NCBI RefSeq assembly: GCF_003865345.1
Contig: NZ_RMVE01000003.1
Location: forward strand, 372,001 to 436,000
Source: Nonlabens xiamenensis
GTDB taxonomy: Bacteria > Bacteroidota > Bacteroidia > Flavobacteriales > Flavobacteriaceae
Reading direction: 5' to 3'
DNA: 64,000 nucleotides
This document shows positions 14,581 through 17,965 of this stretch, one piece after another. The position numbers and the translations under genes were made by a program. How positions within the stretch are numbered: the stretch's first letter is position 1; each line of letters starts with the position of its first letter. The notes beneath the pieces were generated by a model that worked only from the letters and a program-made list of their open reading frames with translations, was not told the DNA's origin and did not search any database.

Positions 14581-16053
14581 ATGCCTCAAGAATTGAATTG
14601 GTTGTTGTTTTTATTGTTAGGAGTTCTAATGGGAGCATTGGTGGCTTGGTTTTTTGCCAAGACTAAATTCAAAGGCGCGCAGGAATTGTTGGAATCAGAG
14701 CGCAATCGACTTCTAGAGGAAGTTGAGACGCTGAGGTCGATCGTACAGGAAAGAGATAATTTACGCCTTCAGAACAGCCAGTTTGGCGCCCAGCTTGAAC
14801 AAAGAATAGAGCAAGTCAAGGAACTGGCAGCCCGTTTAGAAAAATCTGAAAAGGAATATAGGGACAAGGTGCTGGAAAAGGAAAATTTGCAAGTACTGTT
14901 GGCAGAGCAACGTACCGCTTTCGCGAAAGCGGAAGAAAAACATGCAGAAGCCCAAAACGAAATTGAAAAACTCAACGAAAAATTCACCAAAGAATTCGAG
15001 AACCTGGCCAACAAGATCCTCGATGAAAAAAGCACCAAGTTTACCGACCAAAATAAAAAGAACATCGAGCAGATCCTGAGTCCGCTGCAGGAAAAAATCA
15101 AGAGTTTTGAAAAGCGTGTGGAAGACACCCACAAAGATACTATCGATCGACAGAGTGCTTTAAGACAACAAATTCTGGGACTTAAGGAACTCAACCAACA
15201 AATGAGCAAGGAGACCAGCAACCTCACCAAAGCCCTGAAGGGAGATGCCAAGATGCGAGGTAACTGGGGTGAGCTTGTATTAGAACGTGTATTAGAAAAA
15301 TCAGGATTGGTCAAGGACTCTGAATATGTGGTACAGCAAAGTCATAAGGATCAAGATGGACGCACGGTTTTTCCTGATGTGATTGTGAACCTTCCTTCTG
15401 ACAAGAAGATGATCATTGACTCCAAAGTTTCCCTGAATGCCTATGAACGCTACGTAAATGAAGAAGAGGAAGAATTACAGGAAAGATACCTCAGAGAGCA
15501 TGTGTTGGCCTTAAAGAAACATGTCAATGATCTTTCTGCCAAAAACTACCACGATCTCTATAGGATTGAAAGCCCTGACTTTGTGTTACTTTTTGTGCCT
15601 ATTGAACCGGCTTTTGCGATCGCTCTTCAACGAGAACCTCATCTTTATAGCGAGGCTTTTGAGAAAAATATTGTTATTGTTACACCTACTACCCTATTGG
15701 CTACTCTCCGAACCATAGATACCATGTGGCAGAACGAAAAACAACAACGTAATGCGATGGATATTGCCAATGCGGCAGGCGCTTTGTACGATAAATTTGT
15801 CGGACTTTCAGAAGATTTGATCAAAGTGGGTTCACAGTTGGACACCGTTAAAAAATCATATTCTGCCAGCATGAATAAACTTACAGAAGGATCTGGAAAC
15901 CTTATTGGACGGGTGGAACGTCTTAAAAGATTAGGCGCCAAGGCCAATAAAGCCTTGAATCAAAAGTTGGTCAATCGCGCCATTGAAAATGATCCGGATT
16001 ATTTGGAAGCCCAAAATTCTAACGATCAGGACCCTTCAGCCAATAAAGGATAA
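14581..16053 (+). CDS. rmuC: DNA recombination protein RmuC
   Basis: A 490-residue protein with one N-terminal membrane helix (about 7-25), a long coiled coil to about residue 200, and the RmuC nuclease-like domain, seen in GNWGELVLERVLE and the DVIVNLP...IIDSKVS stretch, a restriction-endonuclease-like D...D-x-K arrangement. RmuC limits inversions at short inverted repeats in E. coli, which is worth noting in a genome with an iterated palindrome. The palindrome itself lies in the coiled coil at 14916, read as AFAKA (residue 113 on). Confidence 0.92.
   Translation: MPQELNWLLFLLLGVLMGALVAWFFAKTKFKGAQELLESERNRLLEEVETLRSIVQERDNLRLQNSQFGAQLEQRIEQVKELAARLEKSEKEYRDKVLEKENLQVLLAEQRTAFAKAEEKHAEAQNEIEKLNEKFTKEFENLANKILDEKSTKFTDQNKKNIEQILSPLQEKIKSFEKRVEDTHKDTIDRQSALRQQILGLKELNQQMSKETSNLTKALKGDAKMRGNWGELVLERVLEKSGLVKDSEYVVQQSHKDQDGRTVFPDVIVNLPSDKKMIIDSKVSLNAYERYVNEEEEELQERYLREHVLALKKHVNDLSAKNYHDLYRIESPDFVLLFVPIEPAFAIALQREPHLYSEAFEKNIVIVTPTTLLATLRTIDTMWQNEKQQRNAMDIANAAGALYDKFVGLSEDLIKVGSQLDTVKKSYSASMNKLTEGSGNLIGRVERLKRLGAKANKALNQKLVNRAIENDPDYLEAQNSNDQDPSANKG
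14916..14931. repeat. Iterated palindrome CGCTTTCGCGAAAGCG
   Basis: Exact copy, translated as AFAKA in the coiled coil of RmuC. Confidence 0.9.
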
Positions 16054-16149
16054 TAAGGTGTACTCAATGCATTTTTTAAACGCAATAATCTGAATATCAA
16101 TTATTTTTATTGGTATGATATATTTAGAACATTTGGTCTAAATATTTGA

Positions 16150-16258
16150 TTATTACGTAAAAGCGTAATAAATTTGAATTATTACGTAAAAGCGTAATAA
16201 ACATAGATTATTACGTATATGCGTAATAAACACCAATTATTACGTAAAAGCGTAATAA
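16150..16258. promoter_or_regulatory. Array of four 22-bp inverted repeats at 29-bp period upstream of satD-like gene
   Basis: Units lie at 16150-16171, 16179-16200, 16208-16229 and 16237-16258. Each is TTATTACG, six bases, CGTAATAA. Units 1, 2 and 4 have the same centre (TAAAAG); unit 3 has TATATG. Spacers are 7 bp and unrelated in sequence, so the starts are exactly 29 bp apart. The last unit ends 24 bp before the start codon. This is a typical multi-site operator or iteron-like binding array; the likely binder is the helix-turn-helix of the SatD-like protein itself, which is inference. Confidence 0.85.
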
Positions 16259-16282: not shown

Positions 16283-16909
16283 ATGCCTATGGAAGTAATT
16301 ATTGCTGGTGATATAGTGGATTCCCAAAAGAACCCGCCAGAATTATACCTGGAAATATTGAAGTCAATACTCCTTAAATATTCCCGAACCAACATGTTTC
16401 AAATGTACAGAGGAGATAGCTTTCAGGCCTGGATCAACAAGCCCGAAGATGCCTTAAAAGCGGCCATAGAAATCAAGGCTGCCTTAAAAAGAAATGAGGG
16501 TTTGGACGTACGTATCGCCATCGGATTGGGCAGTATCAATCTAATTGATAACAACATTGCTGTTTCAACTGGCACTGCGCTGACCAGATCTGGAGCGTTG
16601 TTGGATTCCTTAAAGTCTCGCGAGCAGAATCTGATGGTAGACGCTGATAGCCCTTTGGATATCTATATGAACACTGCTTTACAAATGGCCTTGCTCTATA
16701 TGGATGAGTGGACTGAAAATAGCGCCGCAACCATTCATGCCGTTTTAGACCAACCAGCTACTACCCAAGAAGCTTTAGGTAAGTTATTGGGAATACGGCA
16801 AGCAACCGCCAGTCGTCGCCTGGATCGTGGATACTGGAAGGAAACTCAAATATTGCTAGGTTTGTTTGTTCAATATTATAAAGATGTAAGCCATGCACAT
16901 ACTAGCTAG
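16283..16909 (+). CDS. SatD-like protein with C-terminal helix-turn-helix
   Basis: A 208-residue cytoplasmic protein of the SatD family. The N-terminal half has GDIVDS (9-14), RGDSFQ (43-48), RIAIGLG (77-83) and a small-residue helix near 94-105, an order resembling class III nucleotide cyclases (two metal aspartates, then the RIGIHTG strand); whether it is active is unknown. Residues 161-180 (TQEALGKLL...TASRRL) look like a helix-turn-helix. Starts at 16283 and 16289 are both possible; a TTG at 16277 is less likely. The four-palindrome array ends 24 bp upstream, suggesting autoregulation. It overlaps the next gene by 17 bp. Confidence 0.75.
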   Translation: MPMEVIIAGDIVDSQKNPPELYLEILKSILLKYSRTNMFQMYRGDSFQAWINKPEDALKAAIEIKAALKRNEGLDVRIAIGLGSINLIDNNIAVSTGTALTRSGALLDSLKSREQNLMVDADSPLDIYMNTALQMALLYMDEWTENSAATIHAVLDQPATTQEALGKLLGIRQATASRRLDRGYWKETQILLGLFVQYYKDVSHAHTS

Positions 16910-17600
16910 ACTATTGATTGCTCACTTATTGGGTGATTTTGTTTTTCAAAATGATTGGTTTGCCAAAAAGAAAAGCCAGTATCAACTGCGTTCCTACCAC
17001 CTGTATCTACATGCAGTTATCCATGCAGGGCTATCTTGGATACTACTTTGGGAATGGAAATACTGGTATGTGTTTCCAATTATAGGGGTGAGTCATTTGG
17101 CCATAGATGCAGGAAAGCTATACCTATCTGGAAAATGGAACAAGCGCTGGTTATTTGCGTTAGACCAATTGGCACACCTGCTTGTATTGATAGGACTTTA
17201 CCTGGCTATGACCAACAAGGAGTTCCTTTGGTGGGAAGGATTTGAATTAATAGCATGGCCTTTGATATGCTGTATTCTCTTTCTGACTACACCGGTAGCG
17301 ATTATGCTTAAAGTATTTTTTACCCGCTGGACTCTGACTGAAGAAGATACAGGCATATACGGATTGAAAAATGCAGGCAAGTGGATAGGGATTATTGAGA
17401 GGTTACTTATCTTTTTATTTATCATCACAGATCATTTTAGCGCAGTAGGATTGTTACTTACGGCCAAATCTGTTTTCAGATTTGGAGATTTAAGTAAAGC
17501 CAAAAACATGAAGCTTACAGAATATGTTTTGATCGGGACATTGCTTAGTTTTGGAATCGCTATTCTGGTGGGATTACTTTTTAAAGGACTTTACTTATGA
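16893..17600 (+). CDS. DUF3307 family membrane protein
   Basis: A 235-residue integral membrane protein with about six hydrophobic segments. Conserved-looking polar residues sit in or next to them: HLLGDFVFQ near residue 11, HAxxHAG near 40, HLAIDAGK near 70 and LDQLAH near 94. Such buried His/Asp pairs suggest a metal site or intramembrane catalysis, but no activity is known for DUF3307. It overlaps the SatD-like gene by 17 bp and the next gene by 4 bp, so the three are translationally coupled. I recall SatD and DUF3307 genes being neighbours in other Bacteroidota. Confidence 0.78.
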   Translation: MHILARLLIAHLLGDFVFQNDWFAKKKSQYQLRSYHLYLHAVIHAGLSWILLWEWKYWYVFPIIGVSHLAIDAGKLYLSGKWNKRWLFALDQLAHLLVLIGLYLAMTNKEFLWWEGFELIAWPLICCILFLTTPVAIMLKVFFTRWTLTEEDTGIYGLKNAGKWIGIIERLLIFLFIITDHFSAVGLLLTAKSVFRFGDLSKAKNMKLTEYVLIGTLLSFGIAILVGLLFKGLYL

Positions 17601-17965
17601 AAAAGATTTTAGGTATCATATTGACTGTTATTGTGCTGATGATGGTGTCGTGGTACGCATTTTTGTATTTCGCCAATTACTCTGATGGTTACCGCAGTGG
17701 CGAACTGATCAAATTTTCCCATAAGGGCTTTTTAGTTAAAACATGGGAAGGCGAAATTTCACAAGGCATCAGCGGTGCACAAATTTTTTCTTTTTCGGTC
17801 ATGGACAAGGAAGATGAAGTGATTAAAAAGCTACAGGAATACCAGGGAGAATACGTTAAACTCAAATATGAAGAAAAGTTTGGAACTTTCTTCTTTTGGG
17901 GTGATACCAAGTACTTTATTACCGAGGTAAGTCTGGAACAAAGCCCACATTTTAACAGGAATTGA
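17597..17965 (+). CDS. Small membrane-anchored protein, third gene of the SatD/DUF3307 unit
   Basis: A 122-residue protein with an N-terminal membrane helix (about 4-26) and a small soluble domain probably outside the membrane, ending in a beta-rich stretch with GTFFFWGDTKYF. Homologues are, from memory, sometimes labelled 6-phosphogluconate dehydrogenase, but nothing of that enzyme is visible here and the name should not be used. It begins inside the stop of the DUF3307 gene (ATGA overlap), so it belongs to the same operon. Function unknown. Confidence 0.7.
   Translation: MKKILGIILTVIVLMMVSWYAFLYFANYSDGYRSGELIKFSHKGFLVKTWEGEISQGISGAQIFSFSVMDKEDEVIKKLQEYQGEYVKLKYEEKFGTFFFWGDTKYFITEVSLEQSPHFNRN

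Follow-up and report, generated by a model that had tools for sequence, protein, structure and literature searches.

A conserved tandem operator array before satD in Bacteroidota, probably an autoregulatory site of the satD-DUF3307 operon

The four inverted repeats that precede a satD-like gene in Nonlabens xiamenensis are a real operator array, widely conserved among Bacteroidota. From sequence comparison, we consider it highly probable that the array is the autoregulatory operator of a satD-DUF3307 operon, with SatD acting as the repressor. A preliminary description of this DNA had proposed an operator array for the helix-turn-helix (HTH) of the SatD-like protein, a proposal supported by the conserved arrays, by their confinement to satD or a satD remnant for the two half-site types searched genome-wide, and by the covariation of half-site with recognition helix.

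In the window (the whole stretch of 64,000 nucleotides that was analysed), the pattern TTATTACG-N6-CGTAATAA starts at 16150, 16179, 16208 and 16237. The units, at 16150-16171 (unit 1, TTATTACGTAAAAGCGTAATAA), 16179-16200 (unit 2), 16208-16229 (unit 3, TTATTACGTATATGCGTAATAA) and 16237-16258 (unit 4), are exact 22-bp dyads before the satD-like gene. Their arms are identical in all four and the period is exactly 29 bp. With up to three mismatches allowed, the pattern was found at just these four places in the window. One hundred dinucleotide shuffles of the window gave a mean of 0.30 matches and a maximum of 3, so that none reached four, and the four 22-bp repeats with invariant arms and exact period were borne out as first described. 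In the whole genome, the only exact matches were the four units of the window, the next best place having two mismatches; no exact match that could mark a further target was found beyond the satD array. With up to three mismatches, the array pattern had 17 genomic matches, fewer than the 34 of a reversed control pattern.

The satD-like gene occupies 16283-16909 on the forward strand. The distance of 24 bp between the end of the array (16258) and the start codon holds for the ATG at 16283; by alignment, another in-frame ATG, at 16289, agrees better with the relatives. The spacers had been taken as free in sequence, and here the first description needs correction. Three units have TAAAAG as their inner six letters and the remaining one has TATATG, the centres of the units in relatives are biased to A/T, and the first inter-unit spacer contains part of a TAnnTTTG promoter box.

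Among 23 Nonlabens genomes, 22 carry satD, including that of the window, and G015 lacks it. Dyads of the form TATTAC-N8-GTAATA, with at most two mismatches, precede satD in all 22. Most of these arrays comprise 3-5 units spaced at 28 or 29 bp, and two loci have a single pair at that spacing. (The named records matching the relatives in the genus are Nonlabens: L036, N. xylanidelens, and L037.) A dyad followed after N8 or N9 by a further half-site was found in exactly the 22 satD-bearing genomes, every printed place lying beside satD when compared by eye. This pattern was absent from the satD-less G015, and its reversed control occurred in 0 of 23 genomes.

When homologous loci were checked for inverted repeats, 284 of 309 distinct Bacteroidota loci proved to have arrays of TATNNN-N8-NNNATA dyads, 28 or 29 bp apart, ahead of satD (125 of 130 in a first set and 159 of 179 in a second). 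The first-set count excludes seven re-fetched loci (L036, L037, L116-L119 and L121) and two identical proteins, and the second-set counts exclude proteins identical to earlier ones. A locus was called when its score from a chained-dyad detector exceeded those of 30 shuffles made for that locus. The detector presupposes an N8 gap and a period of 27-30 bp; support free of a set period comes from a lag analysis and from a control with other periods. The lag analysis covered lags 10-89 with no period assumed. For 112 non-Nonlabens loci (108 distinct proteins) it gave a peak at 28 (0.479 vs. about 0.32), followed by 56 and 84, and for the 22 Nonlabens loci it gave peaks at 29 and 57. A detector score of at least 6 was reached by 257 of 309 upstream regions, 0 of 309 in-gene segments and 3 of 155 segments farther upstream. 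Set to other periods, the detector called 0 to 15 of 309. Of the 25 distinct loci with no array above shuffles, 14 have diverged SatDs (model score below 140) and 11 do not.

The commonest step between units is 28 bp, with 562 of 698 steps; the 29-bp step seen in the window accounts for 132. Arrays in the main sets have 2-6 units, most often three (149 of 284) or four (84 of 284); the longest array seen, at L389, has seven units at exact 28-bp steps upstream of satD. Of 393 exact pairs, 380 have a gap of 8 inside the dyad, a figure partly built in as the half-sites came from the N8 detector; of 299 gaps between dyads, 208 are 8 and 79 are 9. The direction of the half-sites therefore changes every 14 or 15 bp. 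In the 839 units of the 284 loci, conservation of the outer TAT and ATA is 91-98%, and the four central positions hold A or T in 93-98%. The core conserved in relatives is TAT-N14-ATA, not the eight-letter arms. Arrays with a 29-bp period and TATAAG half-sites were observed at L270-L275, L281-L284, L286 and L308, so that the period differs between SatD subfamilies.

Genome-wide searches with two half-site types, over 23 Nonlabens and 299 family genomes, did not find the array beside unrelated genes throughout genomes; it was confined to satD or a satD remnant. The TATTCC version was present in 12 of the 299 family genomes, 11 times at satD and once before a decayed satD remnant, with no match for the control pattern. 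In the remnant case (G132; L335 2496-2830, G132:C50), an intact array lies between rmuC and the decayed satD, and an unrelated gene on the opposite strand follows. Tandem dyads at constant spacing do resemble a mobile or structural repeat (REP-like, CRISPR-like or an integration site) that came to lie there by chance. The genome holds just four exact copies, all before satD, the position stays constant across genera while the sequence differs, and the array is missing from the satD-less G015; such a repeat is hardly credible as an explanation.

The middle letters of the half-site vary by lineage and track residue 176 of the SatD recognition helix. In the window this helix lies in an HTH at codons 143-180 counted from 16289 (16715-16828, forward strand), with helices at 143-154, 160-167 and 171-180. 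It reads Q171 A172 T173 A174 S175 R176 R177, and the codon of R176, the best predictor of the half-site, is at 16814-16816. With R at position 176 the half-site is mostly TATTAC, with Q TATTAG or TATAAG, with K TATTCC and with E TATCG or TATCTG, and with small residues it is often TATCAC/T. Consensus half-sites obtained in the everted orientation were reoriented under a fixed rule. In a table of column information, drawn up from the 270 of 284 arrays whose half-site begins with TAT, residue 176 is the top of 200 columns for letters 4, 5 and 6, and residues 172 and 173 are among the next.

A single-residue rule, taken from the first set of loci, was correct in 89 of 143 new loci, as compared to a mean of 26.6 and a maximum of 41 in 2000 permutations. 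The rule was scored on 143 of 159 arrays, the remainder carrying residues outside it. Of its 54 misses, 21 belong to three systematic classes, namely CTG where E occurs with N173 (12), ATG where A or T occurs with N173 (4), and CGT where G or T occurs with S173 (5); the other 33 lie outside these classes. These classes led us to a table of residues 173 and 176. In it, A,R gives TAC in 24 of 24 and T,R in 21 of 24, A,K gives TCC in 26 of 30, T,E gives CGT in 20 of 24, S,E gives CGG in 11 of 13, N,E gives CTG in 12 of 14, and A,Q gives AAG or TAG in 40 of 44. Thirty further loci were collected, of which 11 were used (the other 19 were the same as earlier ones). All 11 had arrays at a score of at least 5, nine could be scored, and the table was correct in eight of the nine; five of these eight are the same pair, S,G, and do not count as independent proofs.

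Shared descent was taken into account by comparing path-disjoint pairs of loci on a tree of the SatD N-domain and DUF3307, built from the 268 loci that have a TAT half-site and DUF3307. Of 31 pairs with unlike residues at 176, 17 have a different letter 5, as compared with 3 of the 103 pairs that share the residue (p = 1.5e-10). For letters 4-6 the sites differ in 24 of 31 and 28 of 103 pairs, respectively (p = 1.2e-6). Among the 429 SatD and DUF3307 columns with at least 80 pairs each, residue 176 ranks first for letter 5 and for letters 4-5; for letters 4-6 jointly it comes second among 436 columns, after a DUF3307 column that has few pairs. On the supported branches of the N-domain tree, each test had 4-7 pairs and none was significant, nearly all differing pairs going in the predicted direction.

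Because the half-site follows residue 176, the first of 429 columns on path-disjoint pairs for letter 5 and letters 4-5, it is very likely SatD that binds the array and controls the satD-DUF3307 operon. As in an autoregulatory operator array, the site sequence covaries with the recognition helix of the regulator, and the two half-site types searched genome-wide lie beside the regulator gene and nowhere else. Another DNA-binding protein, in place of SatD, might read the array. We regard this as very improbable, since letter 5 and letters 4-5 follow residue 176 above any other SatD or DUF3307 column on the path-disjoint pairs, and since no array of either half-site type searched was found away from satD or its remnant.

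Some loci depart from the general pattern. L042, L045 and L050 are exceptions to the correspondence of R with TATTAC. The dyads of L045 and L050 are lopsided, with TATCAC on one side and a GGATA- or GAATA-like arm on the other, and the SatD helix there reads QNT.SRR. Five arrays (L135, L060, L033, L124 and L052) were seen by eye to hold two half-site types, for example TATTCC farther upstream and TATCAC or TATCG nearer the gene. These mixed arrays may represent a specificity change under way, or sites for two proteins.

Bacteroidota promoters carry a TTTG element at -33, and a candidate for it lies at 16145-16148 on the forward strand of the window. After N20 it is followed by TAAATTTG (16169-16176, forward strand), a match to the flavobacterial sigma-A -7 consensus TAnnTTTG, which the portion of PMC9723704 used here places at -12 to -5. 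Unit 1 is enclosed by TTTG-N20-TAAATTTG; it fills the gap between the predicted -33 and -7 boxes and has its TA in common with the -7 box. By the box position given in that portion of PMC9723704, transcription would start near 16181, inside unit 2, and this unit would cover the predicted start. An imperfect 17-nt inverted repeat (82%) was observed at 16115-16150, directly 5' of unit 1 and extending into the -33 region.

The same phase is found in relatives, and the identity of the promoters is judged from it. TAnnTTTG keeps a set phase to the units: 104 box-unit pairings place its start at unit position +18, 29 at +16 and 18 at +7. The +18 position is used in 81 of 284 loci, and in 32 of the 104 pairings at +18 a TTG stands exactly N20 upstream. 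An exact TAnnTTTG lies inside or abuts 147 of the 284 arrays, which gives promoter overlap for about half of them. Since many units interleave with sigma-A boxes, this arrangement favours repression.

Two other readings bear on the promoter. SatD might bind the array and activate, or both activate and repress, the upstream units then serving as activator sites. TAnnTTTG does lie between the last two units at 16 of 22 Nonlabens loci, so that most units are upstream of the promoter. We think activation unlikely, since a box at +18 in 104 pairings means that a dyad fills the -33/-7 space and that the next unit would cover the start, three of the four units in the window are at or downstream of the predicted start, and the parallel protein HipB, in the parts of its literature drawn on here, is a repressor. 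Alternatively, the units might act as RNA hairpins in the leader, as attenuator or stability elements: units 2-4 of the window would be part of the leader transcript, where each might self-pair. Yet the fixed 28/29-bp lattice, the near-invariant TAT and ATA, the A/T-rich centre and the covariation with a residue of the HTH are what one expects of DNA sites, and in those 16 Nonlabens loci all units but the last are upstream of the box. Leader hairpins seem scarcely more than a bare chance, and repression by SatD remains the preferred reading.

SatD is predicted to combine a class III nucleotidyl-cyclase fold with an HTH. In the window the predicted fold covers codons 1-140 (16289-16708, forward strand, counted from 16289), and it is shared with class III nucleotidyl cyclases in a comparison that took the 1000 chains ranked highest by Foldseek. 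Active class III cyclases have a metal-binding Asp pair and catalytic Asn/Arg residues. The Asp pair is conserved in the SatD alignment; no catalytic Asn/Arg motif of the class III adenylyl and guanylyl cyclases was seen there, the stretch reading SNG.A...SG in most members, and cyclase activity of SatD is doubtful. Against Pfam SatD (PF16264), the window protein scored 18.8 bits (E = 1.3e-3), below the cut-off of 29. In an alignment of this protein with 57 of 80 named loci, 47 of the 58 members matched the family at E ≤ 0.1, the best at 3.5e-14. No PF16264 match was found in the genome of the window, which has the satD-like gene, or in 14 control genomes.

SatD had no match in 72,556 plasmid records at E = 1e-5, and viral contigs gave one distant relative. 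On the viral-classed contig IMGVR_UViG_3300012148_000149 (L333, 2880-2950), a distant SatD with 27% identity is preceded by ACAGC/GCTGT-type repeats at steps of about 29 bp, as judged by eye. Neither SatD nor DUF3307 had a match in a defence library at E up to 1. A toxin-antitoxin module was considered and not adopted: nearly all the listed genomes have a single match, plasmid copies were not found, and the partner is unlike HipA.

The partner is the second gene of the operon. It encodes a predicted membrane protein at 16893-17600 on the forward strand, overlaps the end of satD by 17 bp and matches DUF3307 at E = 8.5e-27. A DUF3307 gene starts between -120 and +300 bases from the satD end in 324 of 327 loci (306 of 309 distinct proteins). 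In 41 aligned sequences H11, D15, H40, H44, H68, D72, D91 and H95 are invariant, and a phage family matched by DUF3307 is named as a membrane protein. A small ORF follows at 17597-17965, its ATG overlapping the DUF3307 stop (ATGA); it has no Pfam match at E = 0.01 and is possibly the third gene of the operon. On the other side, rmuC (14581-16053) lies directly upstream of the satD region, and RmuC was matched in 75 of 327 satD loci, though many upstream flanks were just 400 bases long.

We propose that SatD would dimerise through its cyclase-fold domain and contact a TATNNN-N8-NNNATA dyad with one HTH per half-site. Invariant regions of SatD would read TAT, and residue 176, together with 172 and 173, would read letters 4-6. 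As a rule three to five dyads on the 28-29 bp lattice would interleave with the sigma-A boxes, bound SatD would act cooperatively along the array, and RNA polymerase would be excluded. Speculatively, a nucleotide-type ligand at the cyclase-fold domain may release SatD. A readable specificity code with autoregulation is very likely on these comparisons. It would give two almost unstudied families, SatD and DUF3307, a role that can be tested, and as the half-site is largely predictable from two residues, control of the operon could be annotated across Bacteroidota.

A broader reading, which we hold as possible and rather doubtful, is that SatDs form a large unrecognised family of nucleotide-sensing repressors that polymerise on a HipB-type 28-bp lattice and guard against harmful expression of DUF3307. 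The cyclase-fold domain would have been retained to receive a ligand and fused to an Xre/HipB-like HTH, and the 28-bp lattice would match the distance between the -33 and -7 elements of Bacteroidota promoters (TTTG-N20-TAnnTTTG). A SatD of Streptococcus bears the same family name. In the portion of PMC11323703 used here, SatD of the sat operon is tied to acid stress tolerance of S. mutans, and satD is essential in S. pyogenes emm1, emm28 and emm49 strains, yet found in 178 of 249 genomes. Speculating by analogy with this other phylum, a repressor guarding against a harmful partner would fit a gene both essential and accessory; if the broader reading were true, harm from unregulated DUF3307 would explain this state of satD in S. 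pyogenes.

Among the open-licence papers listed in our searches, we found nothing on SatD operators. Codes of this kind are described for other regulators. In the LacI family, according to the abstract of PMC2978694, two residues and two nucleotides form a code derived from sites near the regulator's own gene. The SatD code likewise comes from local regulation; LacI belongs to another HTH family, and the abstract makes no mention of a tandem lattice. Residue-base correlations in GntR and MerR regulators, in the parts of PMC4494728 and PMC5045206 drawn on here, serve in those other families as comparative evidence for protein-DNA contacts, the same kind of evidence as that for the SatD code.

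The closest parallel is HipB of E. coli. As described in the portions of PMC3376134 and PMC3920265 used here, HipB represses hipBA by binding cooperatively to four TATCC-N8-GGATA sites. In both systems the regulator gene is the first of a two-gene operon. When the SatD profile was compared with solved structures, HipB chains were the best sequence matches (E = 0.005, over the HTH only), and the helix reads QATIS in HipB (L334) and QATAS in SatD. The hipBA sites parse as TTATCC-N8-GGATAA-N8-TTATCC in the oligonucleotide given in the consulted part of PMC3376134 and in the promoter (L334), where one arm is ATATCC and one GGATAT. HipB sites and SatD arrays thus have in common the outer TAT letters, the N8 centre and the 6-N8-6-N8 lattice, and the geometry of TAT..-N8-..ATA with neighbours 28 bp apart was found across the SatD loci, the window itself having 29. 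There are also differences. In the hipBA promoter (L334), the O1-O2 and O3-O4 pairs are each spaced 28 bp with a 39-bp step between pairs, whereas SatD arrays are continuous. SatD has a predicted cyclase-fold domain and DUF3307 as its partner, not a HipA-type kinase toxin, and its half-sites vary widely between lineages. The preliminary description knew of no described regulator with this layout. That view is not supported, because HipB sites form the same lattice in pairs; the SatD lattice is a known layout that has been extended to longer runs and diversified in sequence. That the lattice occurs with both SatD and HipB suggests a recurrent way of bringing neighbouring HTH dimers into contact, with N8 dyads placed 28 bp apart.
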